Source of the DNA: Pseudonocardiaceae bacterium
Lineage (GTDB): Bacteria; Actinomycetota; Actinomycetes; Mycobacteriales; Pseudonocardiaceae
Reading direction: 5' to 3'
Assembly (NCBI GenBank): GCA_009379815.1
Contig: WHSY01000010.1
Coordinates: 1 to 64,000 of the forward strand
Length of the DNA: 64,000 nucleotides
Under the pieces are notes generated by a model that worked only from the letters and a program-made list of their open reading frames with translations, was not told the DNA's origin and searched no databases. Of the stretch, positions 40,538-62,178 are shown piece after piece. The position numbers and the translations under genes were made by a program. The first letter of the stretch is position 1, and every line of letters begins with the position of its first letter.

Positions 40538-40602
40538 GTACTCAGGCCCACGCCTGGACTTGGTGGCAAGCAGCCGCAGACGTCAAGTCGAGAGGACACG
40601 AG

Positions 40603-40983: not shown

Positions 40984-41003
40984 CCACGATCAACGACCGA
41001 CCC

Positions 41004-41426: not shown

Positions 41427-41432
41427 TCGGCC

Positions 41433-41918: not shown

Positions 41919-41921
41919 GTC

Positions 41922-43860: not shown

Positions 43861-45716
43861 GTGAGTTGACGACCCTGCTGCTGCTCGGGCTGGGCGCCAC
43901 CGTGGTCGCGACCCTGGTGCTGGGGCGCCGCCGCCAGCACGGCCCAGCCGCCGTCGCCACCGGGCTGGCTGTGCTGCTGGCCTGGCAGCTGGCCACCTGG
44001 GCGCCGCTGCTGTCGGCCACGCTCGCCGCCGCGCTGGGCATCGTCGGGTGGGTGCGGTTGTCCCGCACCGCCTCCACCGTGTCGCGGTGGGGCGCGCGGT
44101 CGCGCCGCAAGGCCGGGGTGGCCTCCACCGTCGACGTCGCCCGGCTGGCCAGCGCGGCGGCGGTGCGGCGCAAGGCCACCGTGGTGCGCCCGTCGCTGGC
44201 CGACCGCAGCCGATGCGACCGGGTGCGGATGGCGACGACGGAGGTGGCGGTGCCGCTATGCCGGGTCGGGGCGCTGCGGGTGTGGTCATCCATTGAGGAT
44301 GTGTGCTGCCTGTTCGGTGGCCCGCGGACCGGTAAGACGGGCTATCTGGCCGGGCGGGTGCTCGACGCCCCCGGCGCCACCCTGGTCACGAGCACCCGCA
44401 CCGACCTGCACCGGATCACCGCGCAGCTACGCGCCGAGCGCGGGCCGGTGTTCGTGTTCAACGCCGTCGGGCTCGGCGACCTGCCCTCGACGATCACCTT
44501 CGACCCGCTGACCGGCTGCGCCGACCCGGTCACGGCCGCGGAGCGCGCCACGGACCTGATCGCCGCCGGGCAGCGCGGTGGCGGCGACAGCGACCGCGCG
44601 TGGTGGGACGCCCAAGCCCGCCGGGTGCTGGCCGCGCTGCTGCACGCCGCCGCGTTGGGCGGGCTGTCGATGCGCGACGTGCAGCGCTGGGTCTCGGTCC
44701 CCAGCGAGGCCGCGCGGCAGGTGACCTCGCTGCTGCGCCGGTCCCCGGAGCCGGCCTATGCCGAGGAGGTCGCCCAGTTCCTCGACACCAACGAACGCAC
44801 CCAGTCCTCGATCACCACCAGCATCACCCCCGCGCTGGGCTGGCTCGCGAGTCCCGCCGCCAGCGCCGCGGCGAGCGGGCACACCCCGTTCGACGTGGCC
44901 GAGCTACTGCGCTCCCGGGCGACGGTGTTCCTGCTGGGGGCCGAGGAGACCCAGGCCGCCCCGCTGGTCACCGCCCTCACGGGCCACATCGCCCGCGAGG
45001 CCCGCCGGATCGCCGCCCGCCAACCCGGCGGCCGGCTGGACCCGCCACTGACCCTCGTGCTCGACGAGGCCGCCCTCATCAGCCCCGTCCCACTCGACAG
45101 CTGGACCGCGGACATGGGCGGCCGCGGGGTCACGATCCTGGCCGCCTTCCAGTCCCGCGCCCAACTCATCGCACGGTGGGGCCAAACCGGCGCCGCCATC
45201 ATTTTGAACAACGCCGCGGCGGTCATGGTCTTCGGCGGCACCAAGGACCGCGACGACCTCGACTACTGGTCGGTCCTCGCCGGCGAGCGCGACGAGCCGA
45301 TCACCACCACCGACCACCACGGCCGGGCGGTCTCCCGCACGGTGCGCAAGGTCGCGGTGCTGACCCCGGCGCAGCTGGCCAACCTCCCCACCGGGCGCGT
45401 CGTGGTCTACCGCCGCGGCATGGCCCCGGTCATCGGGCGGGTGCGCATGGCCTGGCACCGCCGCGACATCCGCGCCCAGCACCGCGCCGACCAACGGCAA
45501 GCCCGCCGCGAGCGCCGGCAGGCATGCGCCGTGATCGCAGGAGCCGAGGCCACCACCCGCCACGCCACCACCACCGGGCGCCCACCTGTGGGCGCCGCCC
45601 GCAACGACGCCCACCCGGACGCGGGTGACGCGGGCGCAGCCGCGCCCGCCGGGTCGCCCGGTCCGCCCGCGCGGGTGCCCCGGTGGGTGGAATCCACCCG
45701 CGAGGACCGCCGATGA
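43857..45716 (+). CDS. TraG/VirD4-like conjugative coupling ATPase
   Basis: GTG 43857 overlaps the DUF2637 stop. The 619-residue protein has two N-terminal TM segments, Walker A CLFGGPRTGKTGYLAG (near residue 155), Walker B LTLVLDEAALISP (near 400) and AAFQSRAQLIARWGQ. This is the T4 coupling protein design, which feeds relaxase-bound DNA to a transfer channel. The next genes, DUF4913 and relaxase, complete a mobilisation module. Confidence 0.9.
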   Translation: MSELTTLLLLGLGATVVATLVLGRRRQHGPAAVATGLAVLLAWQLATWAPLLSATLAAALGIVGWVRLSRTASTVSRWGARSRRKAGVASTVDVARLASAAAVRRKATVVRPSLADRSRCDRVRMATTEVAVPLCRVGALRVWSSIEDVCCLFGGPRTGKTGYLAGRVLDAPGATLVTSTRTDLHRITAQLRAERGPVFVFNAVGLGDLPSTITFDPLTGCADPVTAAERATDLIAAGQRGGGDSDRAWWDAQARRVLAALLHAAALGGLSMRDVQRWVSVPSEAARQVTSLLRRSPEPAYAEEVAQFLDTNERTQSSITTSITPALGWLASPAASAAASGHTPFDVAELLRSRATVFLLGAEETQAAPLVTALTGHIAREARRIAARQPGGRLDPPLTLVLDEAALISPVPLDSWTADMGGRGVTILAAFQSRAQLIARWGQTGAAIILNNAAAVMVFGGTKDRDDLDYWSVLAGERDEPITTTDHHGRAVSRTVRKVAVLTPAQLANLPTGRVVVYRRGMAPVIGRVRMAWHRRDIRAQHRADQRQARRERRQACAVIAGAEATTRHATTTGRPPVGAARNDAHPDAGDAGAAAPAGSPGPPARVPRWVESTREDRR

Positions 45717-46354
45717 CCACCCCCATGGGCACACCCGAGCCCGGCTCGAACGCGCACCCGCAGCTGGCCGCGCTCGGCCGCGAGGTCGAGCGGCTATCCC
45801 GCCGCCACGCCGACCTCGACGCCCTGGTGCAACGCTTGGCCGAAGACATCACCCTGCTCGCCCCACCGCCCGACGACGGCGAGCCTGAGGGGCTGCGGTC
45901 GTGGCTGGCCGCCGATGACCCTGAGCAGGCCCGCGCCCTACTGGCCGACCTCACGGACTGGCTGGGGCGGGTCTACCTGCGCTATCTGGGAGTGGCGCTG
46001 CCGTCGTGCTGGGCCTGGCACCCCGCCGTGGTCGAGGAACTGTGGTGGCTGCGCAACGCCCACCACGACGCCTACCACGGCCAGTCCGCCTGCTGGCGCG
46101 AGGTCGGCGACTGGCACGACCGCCAACGCCCCGGCGTCACGGCACGGATCCGCAAGGCCATCGGCGACTGCGAACTGTCCCGCCACGCCGCAGGCGGCGA
46201 CCGCCGCCGCGCCACCCCAGACGTGCCCCTGAGCAGCGCCGCCGAGCGGCTCGCCGAGCACTGGACCACCCACCACGCCACGCCGCAGCCGACCCAACAG
46301 CAACTGCACGAAGCCGACCAGCACGACCAAGCACAACTCAGGAACCGCCCATGA
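45713..46354 (+). CDS. DUF4913 protein
   Basis: ATG 45713 overlaps the coupling-protein stop (ATGA). The 213-residue protein starts with a coiled helix (LAALGREVERLSRRHADLDA) and has WAWHPAVVEELWWLRNAHHD and WHDRQRPGVTARIRKAIGDC, the DUF4913 signature. The family is common between coupling protein and relaxase genes in actinobacterial mobile elements; its role is unknown. Confidence 0.82.
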   Translation: MTTPMGTPEPGSNAHPQLAALGREVERLSRRHADLDALVQRLAEDITLLAPPPDDGEPEGLRSWLAADDPEQARALLADLTDWLGRVYLRYLGVALPSCWAWHPAVVEELWWLRNAHHDAYHGQSACWREVGDWHDRQRPGVTARIRKAIGDCELSRHAAGGDRRRATPDVPLSSAAERLAEHWTTHHATPQPTQQQLHEADQHDQAQLRNRP

Positions 46355-46608
46355 GACCCGCTCCCCAGCACGAGACCCCAACCCCCGCCGAAGATCACCA
46401 CGGCACAGCGCAAGTCAAGATCCAAAGAAGAGTCACACCCATGCATCACGATCCCAGGGAGATCAACTTCGGCGCTGGCGCGCCTCCGTTGAAGATCAAT
46501 CCCGCCGGGCCTTGCGGCCCGGCTCGGCCGACCTTCGCGGGCACGGGCGCAGGCGTTGTCGGGGTGCTGCCGGGGCCTGCTAGCGGGAGGGCGATGCGGC
46601 CGTGTTGA
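46351..46608 (+). CDS. Small ORF bridging DUF4913 and relaxase
   Basis: ATG 46351 overlaps the DUF4913 stop, and its own stop lies just after the relaxase start. The 85 residues are not recognisable and include an internal hairpin-bearing stretch. It may be translated to couple the relaxase, or the DNA may instead act as an origin of transfer. Treat as tentative. Confidence 0.4.
   Translation: MRPAPQHETPTPAEDHHGTAQVKIQRRVTPMHHDPREINFGAGAPPLKINPAGPCGPARPTFAGTGAGVVGVLPGPASGRAMRPC
46504..46523. promoter_or_regulatory. Hairpin, candidate part of oriT
   Basis: GCCGGGCC (46504-46511) and GGCCCGGC (46516-46523) form a perfect 8-bp stem with a TTGC loop, 80 nt upstream of the relaxase start. MobF relaxases often act at a hairpin near their gene; the nick site cannot be read here. 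Confidence 0.4.
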
Positions 46609-49600
46609 GTATCGCCGTCGGGCATGACGTGGGCTATCTGACCGGCGCTGTCGGGGGTGGCCGGGAGAACTACTACACCGGCGCGGTGGCCGCCGGGGAG
46701 CCGCCCGGGGTGTGGTACGGCAAGGGCGCCGAGCTGCTGGGGCTGTCCGGCGAGGTCGACGCCGAGCAGATGGAAGCGATCTACCACCACCTGCTCGACC
46801 CGCGCGACCCGGCCTCGCGCTCTCGCGCCACTTGGGGGGAGGCGGCGCGGCTCGGCAAGCCGCACAAGAGCTACCGGTCGGCCGACGAGATCTACGCGGC
46901 AGCGCTGGAGCGGGAGCCGCACGCCGGGCCGGAACGCCGCGCGCAGTTGCGGGCCGACGCCGAGCGGTCAGCGCGGCAGCCGGTGAGCTTTTATGACGTG
47001 ACGTTCTCCGCGCCCAAGAGCGCGTCGGTGCTGGCGGTGGCGTTCGAGCGGGCCGCCAACGAGGCGCGGGCGGCGGGCGACGAGGAGACGGCCGCCGCCT
47101 ACGAAACTTATGTGCGGGCGATCGAGGACGCGGTGATGGCCGGCGCCCGGGCGGGCCTGGACTACCTGGAGCAGCGGGCGGGTTATGCCCGCACCGGGCA
47201 CCACGGCGGGCGGGCCGGGCGCTGGGTCGATGCCCACAACCTCGTTGTGGCGCAGTTTCTGCAGCACGACTCCCGGGAGGGTGACCCGCAGCTGCACGTG
47301 CACGGCGGGGTGCTCAACCGGGTGCTGTGCGCCGATGGGGTGTGGCGGGCGCTGGACGGTCAAGCGCTGCACACCTGGAAGGCCGCCGCGAGCGAGATCT
47401 CCAACCGGGTCACCGAAGCGTATGTGACACGTGCGCTGGGGGTGCGACACGAGACAACACCGGACGGGAAGTCCCGCGAGATCGTCGGGATCGACAAGCC
47501 GGTGCGGGACCTGTACAGCACCCGCCGCCGGCAGACCACGGGCAAAGCCGAGCAGTACTTCGCGGCGTTTCGGGAGCGGTTCGGCCGCGAGCCCTCGGCG
47601 CTGGAGCGTCACCGGCTGTCGCAGCGGGCCACGCTGGCGACCCGCCGGGCGAAGTCGCATAACGGGGAGACGCTCGGGCAGCGGATGGACCGGTGGGCCG
47701 CCGAGGCGCACCAGGTGATGCGGGGCGGGCTGGCCGAGGTCGCCCGGCATGTGCTCGACCGCGCCCAGCGCATGGAACCGGCCGCGGTCTGGTCTGCGCG
47801 CGACGTGATCGAACGGGCGGTGGCCGCGCTGAACGACAAGCGGGCCACCTGGTCGCGGTCGCATCTGACGCGGGCGGTCTCGGAGGCGCTGCCCGCGCAC
47901 CTGGACATCGACCCGCAGCAGGTGCCCGAGCTGCTCGACGGCCTCACCGACACCGCGCTTCGGCAGGTGGTGTGGCTTAATCCGCAGGACGCGGCCGACA
48001 ACCCACCGCAGTATCTGCAACGGGCCGACGGCAGCCCGGTCTACACCAACCCGAGCGGGGCGCGCTACGCCGCGCCGGGCCAGCTGGCCGCCGATCACGC
48101 GCTGCGGGTCGCGGCGGTGCGGCGCGGCGCCGCCCGCCTGTCGGCCGACGAGGCGGCTGCGGCGCTGAGCCGGTTTTCCAAGTCCGGTGTCGAGCTGGGC
48201 GCCGACCAAGCCGCCGCGGTGCGGGGGGTGCTTACGTCCGGGGCGCGGGTGGAGACGCTCCTGGCGGCCGCGGGCACGGGCAAGAGCTTCACGATCGGCG
48301 CGATCGCCGACACGTGGAGTGGCAGTGGGCGGAGGGTGTTCGGGCTGGCCCCGTCGCAGGTCGCCACCGAGGTGCTGGCCGACGAAGGGGTGACCGCCCG
48401 CAACACCGCACGGTGGCTGGCCACCCAGCAGCGGCTCGAGGATGCCGCCCCGGACGGGCCGGATACGGGCGGCCGCGACCCCGACGGGCAGTGGCGATTG
48501 CGCGAGGGCGACCTGGTGGTCGTCGATGAGGCCGGCATGACCGACACCGCGCAGCTGGCCGAGATCAACTGCCGCTGCGAGCAGGCCCGGGCCAAGCTGC
48601 TGCTGGTCGGTGACCCGCGCCAGCTGGCCGCGGTGGGGCCGGGCGGGGCGCTGGCCGACGTCGCCGAGCACGGCATCAGCTACCAGCTGGCCGAGGTGCG
48701 CCGGTTTAGCGCCGACTGGGAGCGCCGGGCGTCGCTACAGCTGCGCGACGGCGACACCACTGCGCTCGACGCCTACCAGCGCCACGGCCGACTCGTCGAC
48801 GGTGGCACGGCCGAGCAGACCGAGACCGCGGCCGCCCGCGCCTGGCTGGCCGACACGCTGGCTGGGCGGGAGGCGCTGCTGCTGGTCGGCAGCAACGAGG
48901 CCGCCGCCCGGGCCAGCGCGGCGCTGCGCGCCGACCTGATCGCGCTCGGCCGGGTGCAGGAGATCGGGGTGGAGCTAGGTCGGCAGGGCACCGTGGCCGG
49001 GATCGGTGACCTCGTGCAGGCTCGCCGCAACGCCTGGGAGCTGATCGGCTGGGAGAACAACACCCGCGCCCCGAGCAACCGGGCCACCTACCGGGTCACT
49101 GGCCTTCGCGCCGACGGCGGGCTGGTCGTCGCCCCGGTGCACGGGCGCGGCGACGACGGCGAGCAGCTGGGGCCACCGCTGGTGCTGCCTCCGACCTATG
49201 TCGCCGAGGACCTGACCCTGGCGTATGCCAGCACGGTGCACGCTGCCCAGGGCCGCACCGTCGACACCGCGCATGCGGTGATTGGCCCCGGCACCGACGC
49301 CGCCGGCACCTACGTGGCGATGACCCGCGGCCGCGAGCGCAACACCGCCTACGCGGTGACCACGCCGCTGGCCGACGACGCAGCTACCGGGCAGGCGCAC
49401 GAGGTTCAGCAGCGCACCGCCTCCGCGATGCTCAGCGAGATCATCGAGTGCGACCCGCACGACGTCGCCGCGGCGGAGCGCTCGGCGCTGGCCACCGCCG
49501 AGCACGCCGAGCAGGAGTCCCGGTCGATCCAGGTGCCCCTGGACCGGCTCGAGGCCGAGATCGGCGAGCTGATCGCCGGGCGCACCGGCGCGCTGCTTGA

Positions 49601-51059
49601 CCGGCTGGCCGCCGAGGAGATCCTCACCGACGGGCAGCGCGTAGCGCTGGTCGCCGACGAGGCCTACGGGTCGCTGGAGCGGCTGCTGCGCACCGCGGAG
49701 GTGGCCGGGCATGACCCGCGCCGCGTTCTCGAGGACGCGCTGGCCGACCGGTCCCTTGACGACGCGCGCAAGCCGGCGCGGGTGCTACACCACCGGATCT
49801 CCGAGCGGCTGCGGGGGCAGTTGGCCCCGCAGCTTTCCAGCTACGCCGACCTCATTCCGCACACCGCGACCGGGCAGCACCGGCAGCGGCTCGACGTCCT
49901 CGCCGAGGCCGCCGATGCGCGGCGCCGCGAGCTGGGCGCCGAGACGGCCCAGCAGGCGCCGCAGTGGGCCGTGGAAGCACTGGGCCCGGTGCCCGGCGAT
50001 GCGATCGCCCGCACCGACTGGGAGCAGCGCGCCGGATGGGCGGCCGCCCACCGGGAGCTTTCCGAGCACACCGACGACGCCGACGCGCTCGGGCCGGCAC
50101 CCCCGGCCGGGCTCGCCGAAAAGCACGCCGTCTGGCGCGCCGCACACACTGCGCTGAACCTGCCCGACGGTGGTGGCGACGAGGACGAACTGTCCGACGG
50201 GCAGCTGCGGGTGCGGGTGCGTGCCTACCAGCGAGAGGAAGCCTGGGCGCCCCGTTATGTCGGTGACGAGCTGGCCACCACCTACCAGCGGGCGCAGCGC
50301 GCCCGCGCCGACGCGCAGATCTGGGCCGCTCGCGCCGAGGCCGCCCAGGACGTGACCGAAGCCGGGCATCTGCGGGCCGACGCGCGGGCCGCCGAGGCCG
50401 AGGCTGCCGAGCTGGCCCAGCGTGCCGCGGCGCTGGAGATCGCGGACAACGCACGCGGCGCCTGGTATGCGGCCACCGCGGTCACCCGGGACGCCGCCGA
50501 CCGCGCCCGGGGCGCACTCAAGGCGCGCGGTGTCGAACTCGACGACCCGGCCGAGCAGGTCACCGCCGAACAGTGGCTGGCTGCGCACCGCGCCGAGCAG
50601 CTCGCCGAGGACCCGCACCGCGAGATCCACCACGAGGTCGAACTCATCGACGGCCAGCACGACGCCACGCTCGGCGCGGTGGCCGCGCCCGAGCCCGTCG
50701 TCACCGACGACGGCGCGGCAACTGGGTGGAGGCCAGCCGCCGAAACCGCCATTATGCCCGACATCCGCGACACCGCCGAGCCGGACGTCACCGAGCACGC
50801 CGACCCGGCCCAGCGCCACCGGGTGCCCACAGCCGACGAGACCGCCGCGGCCGTGGCGCGCGCGCAAGCGGCGCTCGCCGAGATCGAAGCGCGGCGCGCG
50901 GCCGACACCGAGCGCGAGGCACGCGACACCGAACGGACCGAACGGCGAGAGGAGCTGACCCGATGGGTCGAACAGGACCGCGGCGCCGACCCGGCGCCCG
51001 CCCGCGACGACCCTGGCGACGACACCTACCCGGTGTTGCAGCGTTCCGTGGACGGCTGA
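46602..51059 (+). CDS. MobF-type relaxase-helicase (TraA/TrwC-like)
   Basis: The GTG at 46602 has GGGAGG upstream. The 1485-residue protein has N-terminal tyrosines (GGGRENYYTGAVA) for DNA nicking and a HUH-type metal motif in PQLHVHGGVLNRVL (about residues 229-242). It then has a RecD/SF1 helicase: Walker A LLAAAGTGKSFTIGA near 555, DEAGMTDTAQLAEI near 643, and YASTVHAAQGRTVDTAH near 876. A long Ala/Glu-rich helical tail follows. It would nick oriT and unwind the DNA during conjugative transfer with the TraG-like protein. Confidence 0.92.
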   Translation: MLSIAVGHDVGYLTGAVGGGRENYYTGAVAAGEPPGVWYGKGAELLGLSGEVDAEQMEAIYHHLLDPRDPASRSRATWGEAARLGKPHKSYRSADEIYAAALEREPHAGPERRAQLRADAERSARQPVSFYDVTFSAPKSASVLAVAFERAANEARAAGDEETAAAYETYVRAIEDAVMAGARAGLDYLEQRAGYARTGHHGGRAGRWVDAHNLVVAQFLQHDSREGDPQLHVHGGVLNRVLCADGVWRALDGQALHTWKAAASEISNRVTEAYVTRALGVRHETTPDGKSREIVGIDKPVRDLYSTRRRQTTGKAEQYFAAFRERFGREPSALERHRLSQRATLATRRAKSHNGETLGQRMDRWAAEAHQVMRGGLAEVARHVLDRAQRMEPAAVWSARDVIERAVAALNDKRATWSRSHLTRAVSEALPAHLDIDPQQVPELLDGLTDTALRQVVWLNPQDAADNPPQYLQRADGSPVYTNPSGARYAAPGQLAADHALRVAAVRRGAARLSADEAAAALSRFSKSGVELGADQAAAVRGVLTSGARVETLLAAAGTGKSFTIGAIADTWSGSGRRVFGLAPSQVATEVLADEGVTARNTARWLATQQRLEDAAPDGPDTGGRDPDGQWRLREGDLVVVDEAGMTDTAQLAEINCRCEQARAKLLLVGDPRQLAAVGPGGALADVAEHGISYQLAEVRRFSADWERRASLQLRDGDTTALDAYQRHGRLVDGGTAEQTETAAARAWLADTLAGREALLLVGSNEAAARASAALRADLIALGRVQEIGVELGRQGTVAGIGDLVQARRNAWELIGWENNTRAPSNRATYRVTGLRADGGLVVAPVHGRGDDGEQLGPPLVLPPTYVAEDLTLAYASTVHAAQGRTVDTAHAVIGPGTDAAGTYVAMTRGRERNTAYAVTTPLADDAATGQAHEVQQRTASAMLSEIIECDPHDVAAAERSALATAEHAEQESRSIQVPLDRLEAEIGELIAGRTGALLDRLAAEEILTDGQRVALVADEAYGSLERLLRTAEVAGHDPRRVLEDALADRSLDDARKPARVLHHRISERLRGQLAPQLSSYADLIPHTATGQHRQRLDVLAEAADARRRELGAETAQQAPQWAVEALGPVPGDAIARTDWEQRAGWAAAHRELSEHTDDADALGPAPPAGLAEKHAVWRAAHTALNLPDGGGDEDELSDGQLRVRVRAYQREEAWAPRYVGDELATTYQRAQRARADAQIWAARAEAAQDVTEAGHLRADARAAEAEAAELAQRAAALEIADNARGAWYAATAVTRDAADRARGALKARGVELDDPAEQVTAEQWLAAHRAEQLAEDPHREIHHEVELIDGQHDATLGAVAAPEPVVTDDGAATGWRPAAETAIMPDIRDTAEPDVTEHADPAQRHRVPTADETAAAVARAQAALAEIEARRAADTEREARDTERTERREELTRWVEQDRGADPAPARDDPGDDTYPVLQRSVDG

Positions 51060-52650: not shown

Positions 52651-53289
52651 CTATGCGTGGCGTCGGCGGTAACGGCGCGCGGCGGCCGCGCCTGCGGCGG
52701 TGAGGGCGACGAGCCCGAGGACGGCGATGGCGAATGGCCATGAGCCCGGCGAGGTGCCGTAGGCACCCAGCGCGACGTAGGCGACGGTGCCGGGGATCAT
52801 TCCCAGGGCTGTGCCGATCACATAGTCGCGGGGGCGCACCGCGGTCAGCCCGGCTGCGTAGTTGATCGGGGTGAACGGCAGCACGGGCACCAACCGCACC
52901 CCGAGGACCGCGAGCAACCCGCGTCGGCGCAGCAATGCGTCAACGCGGGCGACCCGGGTCCCGGTGATCCGCTCGACGGCCTCGCGGCCCAGCATCCGGC
53001 CGAGCCCGAACGCGGCCAGCGCGCCGAGCATCGCGGCGCACATGACCACGACGATGCCCGTCACCAGCCCGAACAGCACACCGGCCAGCACGCCGAGCAC
53101 GTTCTTGGGCAGCGGAGCCAGCGTCACGAGCGCGTAGAGCAGCACGAACAGCGCGGGCGCCGCGGGCCCGGTCGCGGCGATCCCGGCGCGCAGCCGCGCC
53201 GGGTCGGGCAGCCCGACCAGGGCCGCCACTGCAACGGCCGCGGCCAGAAAGGCCCCGAGCAGGCCCAGCCGCACCCACACGGAGAGCAC
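52651..53289 (-). CDS. VTT-domain (TVP38/DedA-like) membrane protein
   Basis: GTG 53289 starts 5 nt after the CcdA stop. The 212-residue protein has five to six hydrophobic segments with LAPLPKNVLGVLAGVLFGLV and RLVPVLPFTPINYAAGLT, the VTT/TMEM64 motifs. Such proteins are linked to lipid scrambling or metal and stress tolerance. Its place after a ccdA-like gene under BlaI/BlaR1 suggests co-regulation. Confidence 0.85.
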   Translation of the reverse strand: MLSVWVRLGLLGAFLAAAVAVAALVGLPDPARLRAGIAATGPAAPALFVLLYALVTLAPLPKNVLGVLAGVLFGLVTGIVVVMCAAMLGALAAFGLGRMLGREAVERITGTRVARVDALLRRRGLLAVLGVRLVPVLPFTPINYAAGLTAVRPRDYVIGTALGMIPGTVAYVALGAYGTSPGSWPFAIAVLGLVALTAAGAAAARRYRRRHA

Positions 53290-53294
53290 GTTGA

Positions 53295-54032
53295 TCAGAG
53301 CGGTGGCCAGCCGAGGCGGGCGAAGGTGGCGAGGATGCCGCTCATGAAAGTCGTCCACATCCCGGTCACAAAAGCCACGCCCATGGTCGCCAGCACGACG
53401 CCGCCGGCGATCTCGATACGGCGTCCGTGGCGCCGCAACCAGCCGAACCTGGACCGGCCGCGCGCTAGACCCGCGGCGAGCAGCAGGAACGGGATCCCGA
53501 GGCCCAGCGAATAGACGAACAGCAGCAGCGCGCCGCGCGTGAGGGTCGATGTCCCGGCGGCGGTTGCCAGGATCGAGGCGAGTACCGGGCCCACGCACGG
53601 GGTCCACCCGAACGCGAAAGCCGCCCCGAGCGGAACCGCACCCGCCGGTCCGTGACCGAGCCGCCCGAGGTCGAACCGCAGCGGGCGTTGCAGGAAACGG
53701 ATCCGCAGCAACCCGGCCATCGTGAGGCCCATGGCGATGATGACCGCCCCGCCCAGCAGCTCGAGCGCCCGCTGGTGGCGGGTCAGCAGCGCACCGAGGG
53801 CCGAGGCGGTGGCGCCGAGCATGGTGAAGACCACCGAGAACCCCAGCACGAACAGGACCGCCGCGACAGCTACCCGGCGGCGAGCGGTAGCGGACTGCTC
53901 TCGCCCCGGCTCGAGCCGAGACAGCCCGGACACGTAGGAGACGTACCCGGGCAGCAGCGGCAGGACGCAGGGGGAGCTGAACGACACGATCCCGGCGACC
54001 AGGGCCAGCGACATCAGCGCGAACAGCTCCAC
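53295..54032 (-). CDS. CcdA-like cytochrome c biogenesis/thiol transport protein
   Basis: GTG 54032 follows GAGGAGG. The 245-residue protein has six hydrophobic segments and the two redox cysteines in SFSSPCVLPLLPGYVSYVSG and FGWTPCVGPVLASIL, the CcdA/DsbD TM signature that passes electrons from cytoplasmic thioredoxin to the outside. It probably supports heme or copper protein maturation with the redoxins downstream in the window. The next gene starts 5 nt later. Confidence 0.9.
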   Translation of the reverse strand: MELFALMSLALVAGIVSFSSPCVLPLLPGYVSYVSGLSRLEPGREQSATARRRVAVAAVLFVLGFSVVFTMLGATASALGALLTRHQRALELLGGAVIIAMGLTMAGLLRIRFLQRPLRFDLGRLGHGPAGAVPLGAAFAFGWTPCVGPVLASILATAAGTSTLTRGALLLFVYSLGLGIPFLLLAAGLARGRSRFGWLRRHGRRIEIAGGVVLATMGVAFVTGMWTTFMSGILATFARLGWPPL

Positions 54033-54066
54033 CCGCTCCTCCTCGGTCTTGCAGGCCCGCCGAGGC

Positions 54067-55026
54067 TCAGAGCGTGAAGTCGCACACCGCGGCACCGGCC
54101 GAAAGCAGCGCCACCACGAGCGCAGGCCCGAGCGACAGGAGGGCCGCGGCGAGCAGGAGGCTGAGATGTGACGCCGCGCTCCGGGCGCGCCCGGGCGCGA
54201 CGAGCAGACGCTCGATGCGCTCGACCACCCCGACGGCGGTGGCCCCAAGCGCCGCCACCGGCAGCGCCGGGTCGCCCGAGAGGGCGAGCAGCGCGCCGAT
54301 CACGGTCTGCCCGTCGTGCCTGCGCACCGCGGCGTCGTCGGCCCGCATCTCGACGAGGCGGGCGATCTCGGTGGCGGCAGCGGGGAACAGCTGGATGGGT
54401 GGCAGGGCGGCCGCCAGCGCGCGGCTGACCGCGACCAGCAGGTGGTGCCGGCCGGCGAGATGCGCGCGTTCGTGGGTGAGCACGGCGTCGAGCTGCTGGC
54501 CGTCGAGCACGTCGAGCGCGCCCCGGGTGACGACGATCGTGGCCGGGCGGCCGGCGACGCAGTAGGCGGCGCGCTCGGGCGCGTCGAGGACGACCGCGCC
54601 GGCACCGAGGATCTCGCGGTGTCCGACCGCACGTGCGGTGGTTGAGTGCTGGTGGCTGTGCCGCCGCGCCCGCAGCAGGGATCGCGCGACGCGCAGCATC
54701 AGGTGGGTCAGTGCGAGCGCCGACAGTACGGCCAGTACCCCCACGCCAGCCTGTGCCACTGGACCGTAGCTGCCCGCGGCGGTTGCCCCGATCGTCGCGG
54801 TGCATGCGCTCACGAGCTGCGTGGTCTCGCCCCAGGCGTGCCACACCTCGACGGCGGTCAAGCCGGCGGCGGCAACCCACGAGCCCACCACGCTCAGTGC
54901 TGCAACCGACCAGGTAGCGATGCCCAGCCTGGGAGCCGTGCCCCGCCGAGTCGCTCGTACGAGCAGGGGAGGCCCCACCACCGCGACGACGAGGGAGTAC
55001 AGCAGCAGGCAGGCAGCCAGGCTCAC
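54067..55026 (-). CDS. M56-family (BlaR1-like) membrane metallopeptidase
   Basis: ATG 55026 overlaps the BlaI stop (ATGA). The 319-residue protein has several hydrophobic segments and a zinc motif in LDAVLTHERAHLAGRHHLL (HExxH type) followed by VEMRADDAAVRRHDGQTV. It resembles BlaR1/MecR1 but lacks a penicillin-sensing domain, so the trigger is not a beta-lactam; it probably cleaves the BlaI-like repressor in response to another signal. Confidence 0.88.
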   Translation of the reverse strand: MSLAACLLLYSLVVAVVGPPLLVRATRRGTAPRLGIATWSVAALSVVGSWVAAAGLTAVEVWHAWGETTQLVSACTATIGATAAGSYGPVAQAGVGVLAVLSALALTHLMLRVARSLLRARRHSHQHSTTARAVGHREILGAGAVVLDAPERAAYCVAGRPATIVVTRGALDVLDGQQLDAVLTHERAHLAGRHHLLVAVSRALAAALPPIQLFPAAATEIARLVEMRADDAAVRRHDGQTVIGALLALSGDPALPVAALGATAVGVVERIERLLVAPGRARSAASHLSLLLAAALLSLGPALVVALLSAGAAVCDFTL

Positions 55027-55388
55027 CGGGCATCCCCTCCGGTTCGGTCGAGCAGCTCACGGAGGCGCCGGGACTCGTCCTCGGTCATCTGCCCGACGAA
55101 GTGGGTGAGCACCGCGGCCGCGTCGTCACCGCCGTCGAGCGCCTGGCGCATTAGCCCGGCACTGTATTCTGCGCGACTGGCGGTGGTCTGATATCGATAG
55201 GCTCGGCCCTCTCGCTCACGCACCAGCTGACCCTTGCGGAACAGGTTGTCCATGGTGGTCATCACGGTGGTGTAGGCGATCTCGCGCTCGGCCCGCAGCT
55301 GCTCGAAGATCTCGCGAACCGTGGCCGTACCCCCGGCAGCCCAGAGCCGGTCCATGATCACGGCCTCCAGCTCCCCGAACCCGCGCAC
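55023..55388 (-). CDS. blaI: BlaI/MecI/CopY-family repressor
   Basis: The 121-residue winged-helix protein has GELEAVIMDRLWAAGGTATV, VREIFEQLRAEREIAYTTV and TTMDNLFRKGQLVREREGRA, the BlaI family DNA-binding domain, then a dimer domain. It overlaps the peptidase gene that should inactivate it. TACTA-TAGTA sites lie upstream at 55443 and, in another divergent promoter, at 59791. Copper-responsive regulators of this family are known, which suits the cargo. Confidence 0.9.
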   Translation of the reverse strand: MRGFGELEAVIMDRLWAAGGTATVREIFEQLRAEREIAYTTVMTTMDNLFRKGQLVREREGRAYRYQTTASRAEYSAGLMRQALDGGDDAAAVLTHFVGQMTEDESRRLRELLDRTGGDAR

Positions 55389-55442: not shown

Positions 55443-55466
55443 TACTATCTACGTACAGAGGTAGTA
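55443..55466. promoter_or_regulatory. BlaI-type operator 1
   Basis: TACTATCTACGTAC (55443-55456) followed by AGAGGTAGTA forms a TACTA-N14-TAGTA dyad between blaI (minus) and the F510-type gene (plus). The first 14 bases recur exactly at 59791-59804. Confidence 0.75.
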
Positions 55467-55525
55467 ATTCAGCCTCTGCCGCTTGCCGCACGACGAAGAC
55501 GTAGCGACCCTCCCGAGGTTCCCGC

Positions 55526-56503
55526 ATGGCCCAGCCCTCCCGCTCCCCCTCGAAGCCGCGCAAGCCCTCGCGCTCGCCGTCACGTCCACAGCCGAGCTCC
55601 CGCGAACGCGGTGCCCGCACGCGGCCCGCACCGGCGTCGACGTCCTCCCGATGGGCACTGCTGGGCGGCCTGGTCGCGGTGATCGCTGTACTCGTCGGCG
55701 TCCTTTTCTTCGCCGTCGGCGACGGCGACGACGCTGGTGGCGGTGCCGACGCCGGTGGCGGCGCCCCGGTCGAGGTCGGCCACGTGCACGGGCTCGGCGT
55801 GGACCCGGCCAGTGGGGATCTCTACGCGGGCACACACTACGGCCTGATCCGGTTTCCCGAGCAGGGCGAGCCCACCCTGGTGGGCGAGGTGCAGGACTTC
55901 ATGGGATTCACCGTGATCGGGCCGAACCGGTTCCTGGCCAGCGGCCACCCCGGCGAGGATCAGGAGGGGCCGGCCAATGTCGGGCTCATCGAGAGCACTG
56001 ACGGCGGGCGGAGCTGGCACACCCTGTCGCTGGCCGGTCAGGCCGACTTCCACGCCCTGGCGGCCCGCCACGGCCTGATCTACGGCTACAACGCCGGACA
56101 GCTGATGGTCTCCGCGGACGGGCGGAATTGGGACACCCGCGCCCGCCTTGCGATGGCCGACCTCGCCATCAGCCCCGAGGGCCCGCAGACGGTGCTCGCG
56201 ACGACCCAGCAGGGCCTGGCCAGCAGCACCGACGGTGGCCGGAGTTTTCGGCTCGTCGCCGGTGCCCCGCTGCTGCAGCTGGTCACCTGGACCGACACCG
56301 GAACGCTGATCGGTGTGGATCCCGAAGGCACTGTGCACGTCAGCAGCGACGGCGGCGCCACCTGGGAGCAGCGCGGCTCGGTGGGCGGTGCGCCGCAGGC
56401 ACTCACCGCCACCGATGACGAGATCTTTGGCGCCGTCGCGGATGGCATCGTCGCCAGCAGCGATGGCGGCCGCACCTTCCAGACCCGATATGAGGCCAGC
56501 TGA
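55526..56503 (+). CDS. F510_1955-type glycosylhydrolase-like beta-propeller protein, membrane-anchored
   Basis: The 325-residue protein starts with a Ser/Arg/Pro-rich cytoplasmic tail, one TM helix (about residues 44-65), then a propeller with HVHGLGVDPASGDLYAGTHY, STDGGRSWHTL, SSTDGGRSF and SSDGGATWEQRGS. The Asp-box repeats match the F510_1955 family, which is found near copper and multicopper oxidase genes. It would face the outside. No catalytic residues are known. Confidence 0.8.
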   Translation: MAQPSRSPSKPRKPSRSPSRPQPSSRERGARTRPAPASTSSRWALLGGLVAVIAVLVGVLFFAVGDGDDAGGGADAGGGAPVEVGHVHGLGVDPASGDLYAGTHYGLIRFPEQGEPTLVGEVQDFMGFTVIGPNRFLASGHPGEDQEGPANVGLIESTDGGRSWHTLSLAGQADFHALAARHGLIYGYNAGQLMVSADGRNWDTRARLAMADLAISPEGPQTVLATTQQGLASSTDGGRSFRLVAGAPLLQLVTWTDTGTLIGVDPEGTVHVSSDGGATWEQRGSVGGAPQALTATDDEIFGAVADGIVASSDGGRTFQTRYEAS

Positions 56504-56548
56504 GGATGCGGTGATGTCCGAGTGATTCAATCGTGAGGAGTGATATCC

Positions 56549-56899
56549 GTGCAACACACGACGCCGCTTCGCCTGGGCCTGGCGGCAACAGCCCTGGCCA
56601 GCGCGGGTCTGCTAGGAGCCGGAATCGGAGTCGCCGTCACAGACGGACCCTCGGCGCCGGCGCCCGTAACGGTTGCGGCAGCGCCGGTGACACCCGTGGC
56701 GGCGCAGCCCGCAGAACCCGACGACCACGCGTCCCCGAACGAGCACATGCATCAGATGATGCAAGGCATGCCGCCCGAGATGCGGGAGACCGCCCAGCGC
56801 ATGCATGAGCAGTGCGGCTCAATGATGGGGCAGATGATGTCCGGTCACGATCGCCGTGGCGGCATGGGCTCCCAGCCGGGTGGCATGATGGACGGCTGA
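56549..56899 (+). CDS. Met/His-rich exported protein, likely metal-binding
   Basis: GTG 56549 has GAGGAG 9 nt upstream; the frame to 56540 would overlap this site. The 116 residues have a hydrophobic signal segment (LRLGLAATALASAGLLGAG), then a mature region with NEHMHQMMQGMPPEMRE, MHEQCGSMMGQMMSGHDRRG and MGSQPGGMMDG. The abundance of Met, His and one Cys suggests copper(I) binding at the surface, similar to periplasmic copper chaperones. Confidence 0.7.
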   Translation: MQHTTPLRLGLAATALASAGLLGAGIGVAVTDGPSAPAPVTVAAAPVTPVAAQPAEPDDHASPNEHMHQMMQGMPPEMRETAQRMHEQCGSMMGQMMSGHDRRGGMGSQPGGMMDG

Positions 56900-57013
56900 C
56901 CGTCGGCCACCGCCACCGGGCTATCCGTGCCGCAGCGAAAGACCAGGTGTTTGTCTGCTATCCGGGGCGGGAAGTATCCGGCAGCTGTATAGGGATCGGA
57001 AGGTGCAGTAACC

Positions 57014-57247
57014 ATGATGGACGGCGGCATGATGACCGGAATGTGGGTCGTCTGGCTCTTCTGGGGGATCTTCGGTCTGCTCCTCATCACCCTTGCCGTG
57101 CTCGCCATCATCTGGCTGGCCCGCAACCTCAGCGGCAACAGCGGCGGTGGCCGCGACGACGCCGAGCAGATATTGAGACGCGAGTACGCCAGCGGACGCA
57201 TCGACGAGGACGAGTATCAACGCCGCCGCGCCCATCTCGGGACCTGA
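57014..57247 (+). CDS. SHOCT-domain small membrane protein
   Basis: ATG 57014 begins a 77-residue protein (MMDGGMMTGMWVVWLFWGIF) with a TM segment, then a C-terminal SHOCT motif AEQILRREYASGRIDEDEYQ. Its Met-rich start echoes the preceding protein. SHOCT proteins often sit next to copper-tolerance genes. Between its stop and 57460 nothing recognisable is seen. Confidence 0.8.
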   Translation: MMDGGMMTGMWVVWLFWGIFGLLLITLAVLAIIWLARNLSGNSGGGRDDAEQILRREYASGRIDEDEYQRRRAHLGT

Positions 57248-57459
57248 CGCTATGGCGCCGCCAGTGGCTGGGCGTCTCTCGTGGGCCGCGGCTCACCGGC
57301 GCTCGGACCACGACGAGGTCGTGCCGGATCGTTCAGAGCGCTAGGGCGATCAGACTACGGAGCGGGATAGCGAGATCCCGTCCGGCCCAGCATTCGGCAC
57401 CTGGCGGGCGGCGGCCAACCGACGCGGCCGGGTGTCGGGGCAGGTATAGCGAGTCGACC

Positions 57460-57723
57460 TCAGCTCGATCGCCGGTCCAGCACCCGACGCAGCTTGCGCT
57501 CGGACAGCCGGCCGTAGGAGAACGCCCCCTCGTCGAGTAGCACGCCGGGCGGGAACAGGACGCCGACGGCGGTGGCCAGCCGCTGCCCCTCCGCGGTCGC
57601 GAGGTCGACCTCGCGAACCTGCAGCGGGTAGTCGTGTCCGACGCGGTCCAGGATCTCCTTGGCCAGGTCGCAGAACCGGCACTGCTCCTGGGTCAGCAGG
57701 GTGATCTCGACGGGTCGGCTCAC
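57460..57723 (-). CDS. Glutaredoxin-like protein
   Basis: GTG 57723 overlaps the redoxin stop. The 87-residue thioredoxin-fold protein has TLLTQEQCRFCDLAKEILDR with the CxxC redox pair and ends KLRRVLDRR. It lies last in the redoxin operon and probably exchanges thiol electrons in the cytoplasm with the CcdA-like protein upstream. Confidence 0.85.
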   Translation of the reverse strand: MSRPVEITLLTQEQCRFCDLAKEILDRVGHDYPLQVREVDLATAEGQRLATAVGVLFPPGVLLDEGAFSYGRLSERKLRRVLDRRSS

Positions 57724-58439
57724 CGCGTCCGCTCCGCGGCCAGGTCGGCGAGCATGCCTTCGGTCGGCAGGTACATGGTGTAGTCGGGGGCACCGCCGTA
57801 GTCGGCGCGCCAGGTGATCGTGCCGTCCGGTCCGACCAGAATGAAGCTGTGCCCGTTGGCGGAGCCGCCCATCATCCCGTACTGGGTGGTGGTGTACGTC
57901 CGGCTGACCGCCAGGTTCGGGTCGGACAGCAGCGGGGTGGACAAGCCCATGTCGGCCGCCTTCTGCGCGAGCAGGTCGATGGGGTCGTGGGAGATCGAGA
58001 GCACCTTGTCGATGCCGGCCTCGCGCAGCGCGGCCTGGTTCTGCTCCAGGTCGGTGATCTGGTCCAGGCAGGGCTGACACATCAGGCCCCCGTGGAAGTA
58101 CAGCAGCACGCTCTGGCCCCGGTAGTCGGACAGGCTGATCTGCCCCCCGGTGCTCGACGGCAGCGTGAACGGCGGGGCGACGTCCCCGGCGCCGGGTTCA
58201 CCGGAGACGTGCCGGTAGCCGCTGGCTGCACTGGCAGTGCCGGCATCGTGGCCACCTGTAGAGGTGGCGTAGACCAGGTACAGCCCGCCCACCGCGATCA
58301 CGGCGAGCAGCGCCCACGCGATGATCCATCCCCGGTTGCCGGACCGGCGACCGCGGAGCCGGTTCACCTCCCGGCTGCCCTGCTTGCCTGCCGGGCCGCC
58401 GCCCCGGGTGGCGGGCTTACCGGATGTCTTGCTGGTCAC
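57720..58439 (-). CDS. Membrane-anchored TlpA/redoxin-family thioredoxin
   Basis: GTG 58439 overlaps the end of the CcdA-like gene by 23 nt. The 239-residue protein has a basic cytoplasmic segment, one TM helix, then an extracytoplasmic redoxin domain with APPFTLPSSTGGQISLSDYR and LYFHGGLMCQPCLDQ (CxxC). It likely receives electrons from the CcdA-like protein and reduces thiols of cytochromes or copper proteins outside the cell. Confidence 0.88.
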   Translation of the reverse strand: MTSKTSGKPATRGGGPAGKQGSREVNRLRGRRSGNRGWIIAWALLAVIAVGGLYLVYATSTGGHDAGTASAASGYRHVSGEPGAGDVAPPFTLPSSTGGQISLSDYRGQSVLLYFHGGLMCQPCLDQITDLEQNQAALREAGIDKVLSISHDPIDLLAQKAADMGLSTPLLSDPNLAVSRTYTTTQYGMMGGSANGHSFILVGPDGTITWRADYGGAPDYTMYLPTEGMLADLAAERTR

Positions 58440-59322
58440 GCTCGGCCTCCTCGACTGGGGTCGTGGTCGGTGATGCCCGGGTGCGCGTTGCCCGCCGGAC
58501 GAGGAATACGAGACCCAGGGCGAGCGCGGCGGCCAGCGCCCACCCGGGCAGCCAGGACAGCGCGTCCACGGCGACGCTGCTGGTGTGCTGCAGCCAGGCG
58601 CTGACCCGGATCTGCCACCCGTCGGTGGGCATCGCGCTGCCGGTGAAGGCCAGCACCGAGGCCAGCGCGCCCATGCCGATCAGCAGCAGCCCGCTCAGCG
58701 CGTTGCCCAGCGGCAACTGGTGCTGCCACCCGCTCAGCCGCAGCCGCACCTGCCGGCCGGTCAGCAGCGGCGCGAGGCTGGCCTGGTGGCGGTCCCACAG
58801 CAGCGCGATCACGGCCAGCGGGACCACCATCCCGGCGACGTAGGCCAGCCCGATCCCCAACGCGCTGGGGAACGAGGCCGCCGCCCCCGACAGCACCGCC
58901 ACCCCGGCCAGCACCGGCGCGCAGCAGGCGCTGGCCACCCCGGAGAACGCCCCGAGCAGGTACGCTGAGCCGAAGCTCTCCGAGCGGGCCGCGCACGCCC
59001 CTGGCATCGGCAGGTTCGGCTTCCACCCGATCAGCATGGCCACCCCGCCGAGCAGCATCAGCCCGCCGCCGACCAGGAACACCGCGGTGTGCTGCTCGAT
59101 GAACAGCCGGCTCAGCGCGGTGGCACCCAGCCCGATCGGCAGGATCACCGTCGCGATGCCGCCGCCGAACATCAGCGTGGCCGGCAGCACACCACCGTGA
59201 TTGCGGAAACCCGTCGCGAAGTAGGCCGGCAGCATCACCGAGATGCAGCACGGCGCCAGCAACGCCACCAGGCCACCGAGGAACGACGCCAGCAGCGTCG
59301 TTCCCAGCAGCAGCTCACCCAT
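58417..59322 (-). CDS. Second CcdA/DsbD-like transmembrane electron carrier
   Basis: ATG 59322 gives 301 residues with six or more TM segments. LVALLAPCCISVMLPAYFAT and GVASACCAPVLAGVAVLS each hold paired cysteines, a CC variant of the CcdA pattern. With the redoxin, glutaredoxin and the two small membrane genes it forms one operon. Compared with the CcdA at 53295 it is longer and belongs to a separate branch, so this region has two electron carriers. Confidence 0.82.
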   Translation of the reverse strand: MGELLLGTTLLASFLGGLVALLAPCCISVMLPAYFATGFRNHGGVLPATLMFGGGIATVILPIGLGATALSRLFIEQHTAVFLVGGGLMLLGGVAMLIGWKPNLPMPGACAARSESFGSAYLLGAFSGVASACCAPVLAGVAVLSGAAASFPSALGIGLAYVAGMVVPLAVIALLWDRHQASLAPLLTGRQVRLRLSGWQHQLPLGNALSGLLLIGMGALASVLAFTGSAMPTDGWQIRVSAWLQHTSSVAVDALSWLPGWALAAALALGLVFLVRRATRTRASPTTTPVEEAERDQQDIR

Positions 59323-59542
59323 CCCGGTCCCGCCGCGCCGAACCGTCCTCGGCGAGCGCGTCCTGGGCCCGCAGCATGTGGATCTCGTCCTGCAGCTCGG
59401 CGATCTGCCGCCGCAGCTCAGGATCGCCGTTACCGGCGCCACCGTTCATCGGGCACCGGCCCCGCCGCATCGGCCGCATGCAGAAAAACCAGGTCGCGGC
59501 CAGCGACGCCGCCGCGACCGCGGCCAGCAGCACCGTGTCCAT
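59315..59542 (-). CDS. Small membrane protein of redox operon
   Basis: ATG 59542 overlaps the preceding gene's stop, and the 3' end overlaps the next start by 8 nt. The 75 residues have one TM helix (VLLAAVAAASLAATWFFC), a basic Cys-containing stretch and a coiled C-terminus (LRRQIAELQDEIHMLRAQD). Function unknown. Confidence 0.7.
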   Translation of the reverse strand: MDTVLLAAVAAASLAATWFFCMRPMRRGRCPMNGGAGNGDPELRRQIAELQDEIHMLRAQDALAEDGSARRDRDG

Positions 59543-59742
59543 CAGCGGTGATCCTCGGCGTGCTCGCGGCTGGCCCGCAGCTGGTCGACCTCGGTGCGCA
59601 GCCGCGCCAGCTCGGCCGCCGCGGCTTGATCGCCGTGGGATCCGCTCCGCTGCGAACCGGAGCCGCGCATCATGAACCACATCATCACGCCCATCCCAAC
59701 TGGGCAGGCCAGCACGGCCAGGCCGAGCAGCAGAGCTTCCAC
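59542..59742 (-). CDS. Small membrane protein (DUF2933-like)
   Basis: GTG 59742 with AAGGAGG upstream starts a 66-residue protein: a TM helix with LLLGLAVLACPVGMGVMMWF, followed by a coiled region (AAAAELARLRTEVDQLRA). The CPVGMGVMMWFMMRG Met-rich motif resembles small proteins near copper genes. It is first in the minus-strand operon that runs to 57460. Confidence 0.7.
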   Translation of the reverse strand: MEALLLGLAVLACPVGMGVMMWFMMRGSGSQRSGSHGDQAAAAELARLRTEVDQLRASREHAEDHR

Positions 59743-59790
59743 AGGTGCCTCCTTGAGTGCGCCGGACAACGGCGGTTACCGCAGCCAATC

Positions 59791-59820
59791 TACTATCTAC
59801 GTACGGACACAGTACAAGTA
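59791..59820. promoter_or_regulatory. BlaI-type operator 2
   Basis: TACTATCTACGTAC (59791-59804) is identical to operator 1; GGACACAGTACAAGTA follows. It lies between the minus-strand redox operon and the multicopper oxidase and suggests control of both by the BlaI-like repressor. Confidence 0.72.
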
Positions 59821-59869: not shown

Positions 59870-61495
59870 ATGGAGGCGGTGACGTTGGCGAGTGAGGTCC
59901 ACGGCGCTTCTTGGCAGCTCGGGGCGGCGCTGGTGAGCCGTCGGCGCCTGCTGGCCGGGGGAGCGGGACTGGGCCTGCTGGGCGCGCTGGGCGGGTGCGG
60001 GAACGGCCGGGTGGACCCGGACGGGTCCGCGGTCGAGCAGGTGGCGGCCCAACGGCGCGTCGCGAACGCCCGGGTACGTCACGCCACCCTCATCGCTCGG
60101 GTCGGGCTGGCGGATCTGGGTGGGTGGACGGTGCGCACCTGGTCCTATGGGGAGGGTGTCCCGGGGCCGCTACTGCGCGGCACCGCCGGTGAGGTGCTGC
60201 GGGTGCGGGTGGACAACCGGCTTCCGGAGCCCACCGCCGTGCATTGGCACGGGCTGGCGATCCGCAACGACATGGACGGCGTGCCGAACCTGACCCAGCC
60301 CTCGATCGCGCCCGGCGCGGCGATGGACTACGAGTACGTGCTGCCGACACCCGGCACCTTCTTCTACCACTCGCATCATGGTGTGCAGCGCGAGCGCGGC
60401 CTCTACGGTCCGTTGATCATCGACGACCCGCGGGAGCCCGGCGACTACGACGTGGAGTTCGTGGTCGTGCTCGACGATTGGACCGATGGCACGAGCCCCG
60501 GATCCAGCCCCGAGGACATCCTGCACTACCTGGAGATCGGCGGGGCCGGTGCGAAGTACCGCGCACCGGTGCTCGCGGGGGCAATCCCCTCGGCGGTCGC
60601 GCCCCCCGCGCCGATGGGAGCACCAGCGCCGATCACGACGCAGCTCGCCGGGGACGTGCAGTACCCGTTCCACTTGCTCAACGGCCGGCTGCCCACGGCG
60701 CCGCAGACCTTCACCGCCCGCGCTGGCCAGCGGGCCCGGATCCGCCTGATCAACGCCTCCGGCGCGACGGTGTACCGGGTCGCGCTCGGCGGGCACCGGC
60801 TGACCGTGACCGACTCCGACGGCTACCCGGTGCAGCCGGTCACGGTCGACACGCTGCGGATCGCGTCTGGGGAGCGTTACGACGTGCAGGTCATGCTCGG
60901 CGATGGTGCCTTCCCGCTGGTCGCGCTGGCGGAGGGCAAGGGCGCCCAGGCCCTGGGGGTGGTCCGCACCGCCGGCGGCGCCACCCCACCGCCCAGCGTC
61001 CAGCCCGCTGAGCTCGACCGGCAGATGCTCGGGCTCGCCGACCTGCAGGCGCCCCCGCAGGTCCGGTTGGACACCCCGGCGCCGACCCAGCACGACACCT
61101 ACCTCACCGGCGACATGAACGCCTACGGCTGGCGGATTAACGCCGAAACCTACAACGCGGCCGATCCCTTCGCCGGCATCACCCCGCTGCCGGTCCGCCG
61201 CGGCGAGCACGTGCGGATGACCCTGATCAACCAGACACCCGCGTTCCATCCGATGCACCTGCACGGGCACACCATCCAGGTACGCGCCATCGGCACCAAC
61301 CGCGCCTACTACCGGGACGGCGCCGCGGACACTCCGTTGCCGGCCGGCGCGCGCAAGGACACCGTGCAGGTCGCCCCGGGCCAGCGCATCGCCGTCGACT
61401 TCGTCGCCGATAATCCCGGTCAGTGGCTGCACCACTGCCACAACGCCTATCACCTCGCCGCCGGCATGGCCACGATCGTCTCCTACCAGGCCTGA
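59870..61495 (+). CDS. Tat-exported multicopper oxidase
   Basis: The 541-residue protein has a twin-arginine signal (SRRRLLAGGAGLGLLGALGG) and a possible lipobox ending at Cys, so it may be a lipoprotein. Copper motifs are present: HWHGLAIRNDMDGVP, FFYHSHHGVQRERGLYGP, FHPMHLHGHTIQV and WLHHCHNAYHLAAGM, covering T1, T2 and T3 sites. It would oxidise Cu(I) or phenolic substrates and is a typical copper-tolerance enzyme. Confidence 0.92.
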   Translation: MEAVTLASEVHGASWQLGAALVSRRRLLAGGAGLGLLGALGGCGNGRVDPDGSAVEQVAAQRRVANARVRHATLIARVGLADLGGWTVRTWSYGEGVPGPLLRGTAGEVLRVRVDNRLPEPTAVHWHGLAIRNDMDGVPNLTQPSIAPGAAMDYEYVLPTPGTFFYHSHHGVQRERGLYGPLIIDDPREPGDYDVEFVVVLDDWTDGTSPGSSPEDILHYLEIGGAGAKYRAPVLAGAIPSAVAPPAPMGAPAPITTQLAGDVQYPFHLLNGRLPTAPQTFTARAGQRARIRLINASGATVYRVALGGHRLTVTDSDGYPVQPVTVDTLRIASGERYDVQVMLGDGAFPLVALAEGKGAQALGVVRTAGGATPPPSVQPAELDRQMLGLADLQAPPQVRLDTPAPTQHDTYLTGDMNAYGWRINAETYNAADPFAGITPLPVRRGEHVRMTLINQTPAFHPMHLHGHTIQVRAIGTNRAYYRDGAADTPLPAGARKDTVQVAPGQRIAVDFVADNPGQWLHHCHNAYHLAAGMATIVSYQA

Positions 61496-62089: not shown

Positions 62090-62178
62090 CCTCTTCCGGC
62101 GCGACCCGGTTGCGCCTCCGGCTTCGGCGGCACGTAACCTACGGCCGACGATAGTAGAACGCTCGGCACGAGGATCGA

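Follow-up and report, generated by a model that had tools for sequence, protein, structure and literature searches.

Among the closest described relatives of the system analysed here are the BlaI-BlaR1 and MecI-MecR1 pairs of Staphylococcus aureus and Bacillus licheniformis. A pair of this kind, blaI and an M56/BlaR1-type metalloprotease gene, is found in contig WHSY01000010.1 of a Pseudonocardiaceae bacterium, together with two copies of a palindromic box in divergent promoters; the analysed stretch of 64,000 nucleotides is called the window below. As in the known pairs, a repressor and a membrane M56 metalloprotease are encoded in one operon that is putatively autoregulated, and the protease has the HExxH catalytic motif and an outside loop between the second and third transmembrane helices (TM2 and TM3). 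Unlike them, the window system has no penicillin-binding sensor, has a putative operator of 24 base pairs (bp), and its predicted regulon contains copper and redox genes instead of beta-lactamase or PBP2a.

Another related system is Rv1846c-Rv1845c of Mycobacterium tuberculosis, which provides the closest solved BlaI structure (2g9w, E=9e-20) and whose M56 partner is likewise sensorless (PMC9834060). Rv1846c orthologues that occur in the same genomes as the box differ, having a 17-bp TACGACn5GTAGTA site and an M56 protein without Cys75 or a C-terminal Cys. CopY/CopR of Firmicutes belong to the same repressor superfamily and have copper genes as targets, and the TAC-N4-GTA core can be read in the ideal form of the box. 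However, the window boxes do not match the refined cop operator RNYKACANNTGTMRNY (PMC7253601), the window BlaI has no CxC metal site, and a protease partner is present. BlaI_0696 and BlaI_1845 of Clostridium thermocellum also have small regulons and paired sites, with inverted repeats of the related half-site GTCTAT/GACTAT (PMC8457756), but these repeats are five bases apart and belong to operons of sensory genes, with no copper/redox targets. Two features usually held as defining BlaI-BlaR1, the classical operator and the beta-lactam sensor, are not found in the window. The best reading of the sequence is that the system operates as BlaI-BlaR1 does, but with a different input and a different regulon. 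No earlier description of a 24-bp-box system was found in the literature searched, which was limited to open-licence papers.

A 24-bp palindrome in two divergent promoters

The exact 14-mer TACTATCTACGTAC is found at 55443-55456 and 59791-59804, in two divergent intergenic regions, just as the initial annotation had reported. The 5.44-Mb assembly contains no other exact copy, and the next-best matches have 2 mismatches. With up to 3 mismatches the window has 5 matches (0.33 expected; 5 was reached in 0/100 shuffles), two of which are degenerate opposite arms of the same palindromes. The 14-mer is the left portion of a 24-bp inverted repeat, whose ideal form consists of the half-sites TACTATCTACGT and ACGTAGATAGTA. 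The right arm is less perfect than the left in both boxes, which read TACTATCTACGT plus ACAGAGGTAGTA and TACTATCTACGT plus ACGGACACAGTA; 9/12 positions pair in each, and the right inner arm is degenerate relative to the idealised box, TAC-N4-TAC-GTAC-GTA-N4-GTA. The two putative operators are:

55443..55466, operator 1, 24-bp palindrome TACTATCTACGTACAGAGGTAGTA, between blaI and the F510-type gene
59791..59814, operator 2, 24-bp palindrome TACTATCTACGTACGGACACAGTA, between orfB and the multicopper oxidase gene; retained in the same-genus genome G001 at L093:9736

Box 1 lies 55 bp from the start of blaI and 60 bp from that of the F510-type gene, and box 2 lies 22 bp from the start of orfB and 56 bp from that of the multicopper oxidase gene. 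The position of box 1 before blaI is as expected for autoregulation, and 24 of the 56 rows of the tree and six of the eight plasmid loci show the same arrangement.

The box had been called BlaI-type. Its linkage to BlaI stands by comparison, but it is a 24-bp palindrome and not the classical 16-17-bp BlaI/CopY box. The canonical operator (TACANNTGTA / RNYKACANNTGTMRNY) was rejected as a description, since the window boxes differ in spacing and core, with a central GTAC and outer TAC/GTA arms. The ideal form does hold the TAC-N4-GTA geometry of the classical core. A genome search for further boxes, suggested by the initial annotation, was run on the bacterium's own 5.44-Mb genome; with up to 3 mismatches allowed to the symmetrical pattern, TACTNTCTNNGTACNNAGANAGTA, it returned the two window sites alone. 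A weak half-site proposed near 62150 before ccmA is not a recognisable box: the best candidate, at 62133-62156, scores 0.5 (36-39 for the real boxes), far under threshold, and was rejected despite its conservation in a sister genome. The 25 bp at 62133-62157, ACGTAACCTACGGCCGACGATAGTA, are nearly unchanged in the same-genus genome while their surroundings differ; they could possibly be a degenerate box or a promoter.

Association of the box with blaI in other Actinobacteria

Orthologues of blaI in Mycobacterium, Rhodococcus, Nocardia, and Pseudonocardia have the same palindrome upstream. Relatives were scanned with one genome per species, giving 46 loci with BlaI relatives, mostly from Mycobacterium, Mycolicibacterium, Pseudonocardia, and Nocardia, and a weight matrix was built from 11 blaI-upstream sites picked by eye. 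It is strongest at the outer TAC/GTA and the central GTAC. In 649 kb (the relatives' loci and the window) about 50 sites score above 12, where 0.6 are expected in shuffled sequence. Across all loci, 57 of 70 box sites are intergenic, with intergenic bases making up 15%. In the same-genus genome the box keeps 19/24 positions and its palindromic form; identity is 84% in the coding sequence and 31/55 in the right flank.

Three further tests are independent of the training sites. Eight plasmid loci from Rhodococcus and Mycolicibacterium were held out of matrix construction, and all eight have boxes: 10 were found where 0.0 are expected. Six of these boxes lie 57-106 bp before blaI. When 399 genomes of the order were searched with the DNA pattern alone (up to 2 mismatches), boxes were found in 13, usually two or three a few kb apart, while the reversed control pattern matched 2 genomes. 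A blaI relative lies within 10 kb of a box in 12 of these 13, even though box-carrying genomes have just 2-5 BlaI-family genes each over 4-10 Mb. The exception is G211, where one box precedes an MPT63-type gene. The same contig has another box, before a gene whose product is putatively exported, and a blaI-M56 pair lies about 6 kb from that gene. The commonest families in the box-anchored loci are blaI and M56 (9/12 each by gene calls, more by tblastn). Finally, the box is missing at 14 of 14 paralogous blaI loci from these box-carrying genomes. All nine paralogous genes that are 82-94% identical to M. tuberculosis BlaI have TACGAC-N5-GTAGTA instead.

Conservation upstream of blaI, the held-out plasmids, the DNA-anchored neighbours, and the absence at paralogues together support the earlier prediction that the boxes are BlaI operators joining the operons into a regulon. 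A clean one-to-one correspondence of BlaI clade and box type was also considered and rejected; the tree is clustered but not cleanly split. Mycobacterium persicum has a perfect 24-bp palindrome, TACTACCTACGTACGTAGGTAGTA, at L025:10776-10799 before a TlpA-like lipoprotein gene, and the site upstream of its own blaI is short. A blaI copy with a good upstream box (L031:8001-8366 and G127:C49:182889) has an in-frame TAG and resembles a pseudogene.

The M56 protease and the gene content of the predicted regulon

The M56 protein of the window has 319 residues. In its structural model (mean predicted local distance difference test score, pLDDT, 86.6) TM1 spans 3-26, TM2 32-66, and a short helix 68-83, and TM3 starts from 89. 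These are followed by the protease domain, by TM4 at 280-314, and by a tail of five residues. Neither Pfam nor the model shows a penicillin-binding or transpeptidase sensor domain, and a hidden sensor domain was rejected when the structure search gave none; that the protein lacks a beta-lactam sensor is thus borne out. Pfam gives weak M48 matches only, but HERAH is present and the gluzincin residues H185, E186, H189, and E226 are invariant. The fold matches Ste24p and BlaR1, weakly.

Among 41 M56 relatives, Cys75 is invariant together with the catalytic residues, and a C-terminal Cys is found in 30 of 38. Both cysteines are present in 21 of 24 box-class M56 proteins and in 0 of 9 Rv1845c-type paralogues from the same genomes, which have neither one (Fisher p=6e-6, uncorrected for relatedness). 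Where the box of blaI is instead a 17-bp one of TACTAA type, the M56 relative keeps Cys75 and lacks the tail Cys (5/5). S. aureus BlaR1 has both of its termini outside, and its TM2-TM3 loop (residues 56-96) participates in signalling (PMC9834060). If this topology holds here, Cys75 and Cys315 would be at the outward ends of their segments, the first in the loop used for signalling and the second in the tail outside the membrane. The cysteine pattern is consistent with copper or thiols as the signal, and we infer that the pair may act as the sensor.

Genes starting at boxes are blaI-M56, CcdA, TlpA/ResA, redoxin, DsbA, CopC-CopD, and multicopper oxidase genes, and also those for L,D-transpeptidase, MPT63/DUF1942, DUF929, and small CPxGMxxMMW proteins like orfB. 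F510 genes lie downstream within box-led units, and weaker sites adjoin a DUF4396 gene and others. Neighbours in the plasmid loci include cytochrome oxidase subunits with their assembly factors, CcsB/ResB, HMA, and M23/RipC genes; the box is not at all of them. Judged from these families, the box targets mostly share copper handling and extracytoplasmic thiol or envelope chemistry. No penicillin-binding protein or beta-lactamase is found in the window regulon. Its genes are as follows, and Pfam and NCBIfam profile matches agree with the protein assignments first made from the sequence:

52651..53607, minus strand, VTT-domain membrane protein (PF09335 E=2e-27); true start probably near 53298
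53295..54044, minus strand, ccdA1, DsbD/CcdA transmembrane protein (PF02683 E=2e-18); start approximate, long open reading frame to 54248
54067..55026, minus strand, M56/BlaR1-type membrane metalloprotease, 319 amino acids, HERAH at 185-189, Cys75 and Cys315, no sensor domain; overlaps the blaI stop
55023..55388, minus strand, blaI, BlaI/MecI/CopY-family winged-helix repressor, 121 amino acids (Pfam PF03965 E=5e-26; M. tuberculosis BlaI 2g9w E=9e-20)
55526..56503, plus strand, F510_1955-family BNR-repeat protein (NF045728 E=1e-76)
56540..56899, plus strand, Met/His-rich small protein, probably exported (from its sequence; no family match)
57014..57247, plus strand, small membrane protein with a SHOCT-like (DUF1707) tail; match below the curated cut-off
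57460..57723, minus strand, glutaredoxin-like protein (PF05768 at residues 125-201 of a longer in-frame mechanical open reading frame to 58080)
57720..58439, minus strand, membrane-anchored redoxin, AhpC/TSA, TlpA-like (PF00578 E=2e-21)
58417..59322, minus strand, ccdA2, CcdA-like polytopic protein with an LLAPCC motif; no Pfam match at 1e-3
59315..59542, minus strand, orfA, small membrane protein containing Cys and Met
59542..59769, minus strand, orfB, small CPxGMxxMMW membrane protein, repeatedly box-adjacent in other genomes
59870..61495, plus strand, multicopper oxidase of CopA/CueO type with an N-terminal twin-arginine-like export signal, SRRRLL (PF07731, PF07732, PF00394; TIGR01480 E=1e-78, below its cut-off)

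In the window BlaI the Penicillinase_R winged-helix domain is nearly full-length (PF03965, residues 5-114), and MecI is also matched. Orthologues of ccdA2 are located at boxes in loci L088, L089, and L090. The inward-facing operons, F510-Met-rich-SHOCT and orfB-orfA-ccdA2-redoxin-glutaredoxin, converge near 57.3-57.5 kb, so that transcription of the whole stretch from 52.6 to 61.5 kb would be covered by the two boxes.

The copper/redox cluster adjoins an integrative conjugative element at 37446-51059, which comprises tRNA genes for Ser and Arg followed by a tyrosine integrase (37752-39071), a type IV secretion system coupling protein (43857-45716), and a TrwC relaxase (46602-51059). A search of the contig for a repeat of the tRNA-Arg end, which could mark the right end of the element (attR), found none. 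On the other side, ccmA, ccmB, CcmF, and a TlpA-like gene (window 62179 to L096:5416) form a system I cytochrome c maturation block, here in an actinobacterium. The pairing of BlaI with a multicopper oxidase occurs twice in this genome: a second, distant BlaI is clustered with another multicopper oxidase and a SHOCT protein at L095 (G000:C88) 1416-3995, with the 15-bp site TACTCGATAATAGTA at L095:3959. In the same-genus genome, ccdA gene fragments directly upstream of blaI (L093:14819-15200) are apparently a duplication remnant.

A proposed copper or thiol switch and its alternatives

We consider it fairly probable that BlaI represses its own and the copper/redox operons via the 24-bp operator and that M56 inactivates BlaI upon envelope copper or thiol oxidation. 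In this model, a BlaI dimer, or two adjacent dimers, would occupy the palindrome between the divergent genes and repress four units: blaI-M56-ccdA1-VTT, F510-Met-rich-SHOCT, orfB-orfA-ccdA2-redoxin-glutaredoxin, and the multicopper oxidase gene. Copper or thiol oxidation at the outer membrane face, probably read by Cys75 in the outside TM2-TM3 loop jointly with the C-terminal Cys, would activate the M56 protease, which would inactivate BlaI by proteolysis. The derepressed regulon would then oxidise or bind copper and restore the extracytoplasmic thiol balance. The operator and the regulon are strongly supported by the sequence comparisons, which also show the missing sensor domain and the cysteine pattern; DNA binding, repression, BlaI proteolysis, and the signal are what we infer.

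Several observations weigh against this model. Because the training sites were picked by eye from sequence before blaI, the held-out, DNA-anchored, and paralogue tests are the only independent ones. The box is not directly upstream in several close BlaI orthologues (L018, L019, L020, L024, L025, L033); L024 and L025 have an identical recognition-helix sequence and a short site upstream of their own blaI. BlaI branches with and without the box are mixed, with 8 label changes on the tree. Genes of a copper island may have copper in common merely through linkage. In the fold comparison S. aureus BlaR1 gives a weak match (8exr, E=0.17, probability 0.98), and Cys75 and the tail Cys are also found in M56 proteins without a box (e.g., L112), so the pair is not diagnostic of the box.

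The box might instead be the site of a different regulator that merely has blaI among its targets, for example a MerR protein or the response regulator of a copper two-component system. Response-regulator genes do lie near boxes in L019 and L093, and MerR genes are found in 3 of 12 box-anchored loci. However, no gene of either kind is near the window boxes, blaI and M56 predominate at the box-anchored loci (9/12 each by gene calls), and the box is absent at paralogous blaI loci, which makes this explanation improbable. BlaI could also be the direct metal or redox sensor, like CopY, leaving M56 as a non-sensing accessory. The two repressors are of one family and the NCBIfam CopY model TIGR02698 matches the window BlaI weakly (E=1e-7, 32 bits against a cut-off of 122), but this BlaI has no cysteine at all, hence no CopY-type CxC motifs, and M56 is co-encoded at nearly every locus. 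We regard a direct BlaI sensor as very improbable.

A different possibility is that BlaI binds the boxes but that other proteins relay a signal of cell-wall or beta-lactam stress, a route proposed for the M. tuberculosis homologue that lacks a sensor. In that species the BlaI system is tied to the beta-lactam response, with a BlaR1 homologue that is also sensorless (PMC9834060), and cell-wall enzymes occur among the targets of the box (L,D-transpeptidases) and its neighbours (M23/RipC). Such a relay seems rather unlikely, given that the window regulon contains neither beta-lactamase nor penicillin-binding protein, that copper and redox genes predominate, and that the M56 cysteine pattern is unlike that of the Rv1845c type.

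Because the palindrome recurs at blaI and at copper and disulfide genes across Actinobacteria, the sequence evidence suggests that a switch of the penicillin-resistance type guards the actinobacterial envelope against copper or thiol damage, using a different signal. More tentatively, and with some doubt, the window system may represent a widespread actinobacterial BlaR1-like subfamily, in which the beta-lactam sensor is replaced by a minimal two-cysteine switch on the outer membrane face that senses copper or thiol oxidation directly, and which, acting via BlaI and its own 24-bp operator, controls an envelope-protection regulon carried on plasmids and other mobile DNA. In M. tuberculosis, the signal input to sensorless BlaR1 homologues is stated to be unclear (PMC9834060). 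Two classes of sensorless BlaR1 systems can now be told apart within single genomes by operator and cysteine pattern, and for one of them a likely signal can be named, with a defined operator and defined residues. The box also provides a searchable marker for the mobile copper/redox regulon in mycobacteria and rhodococci.

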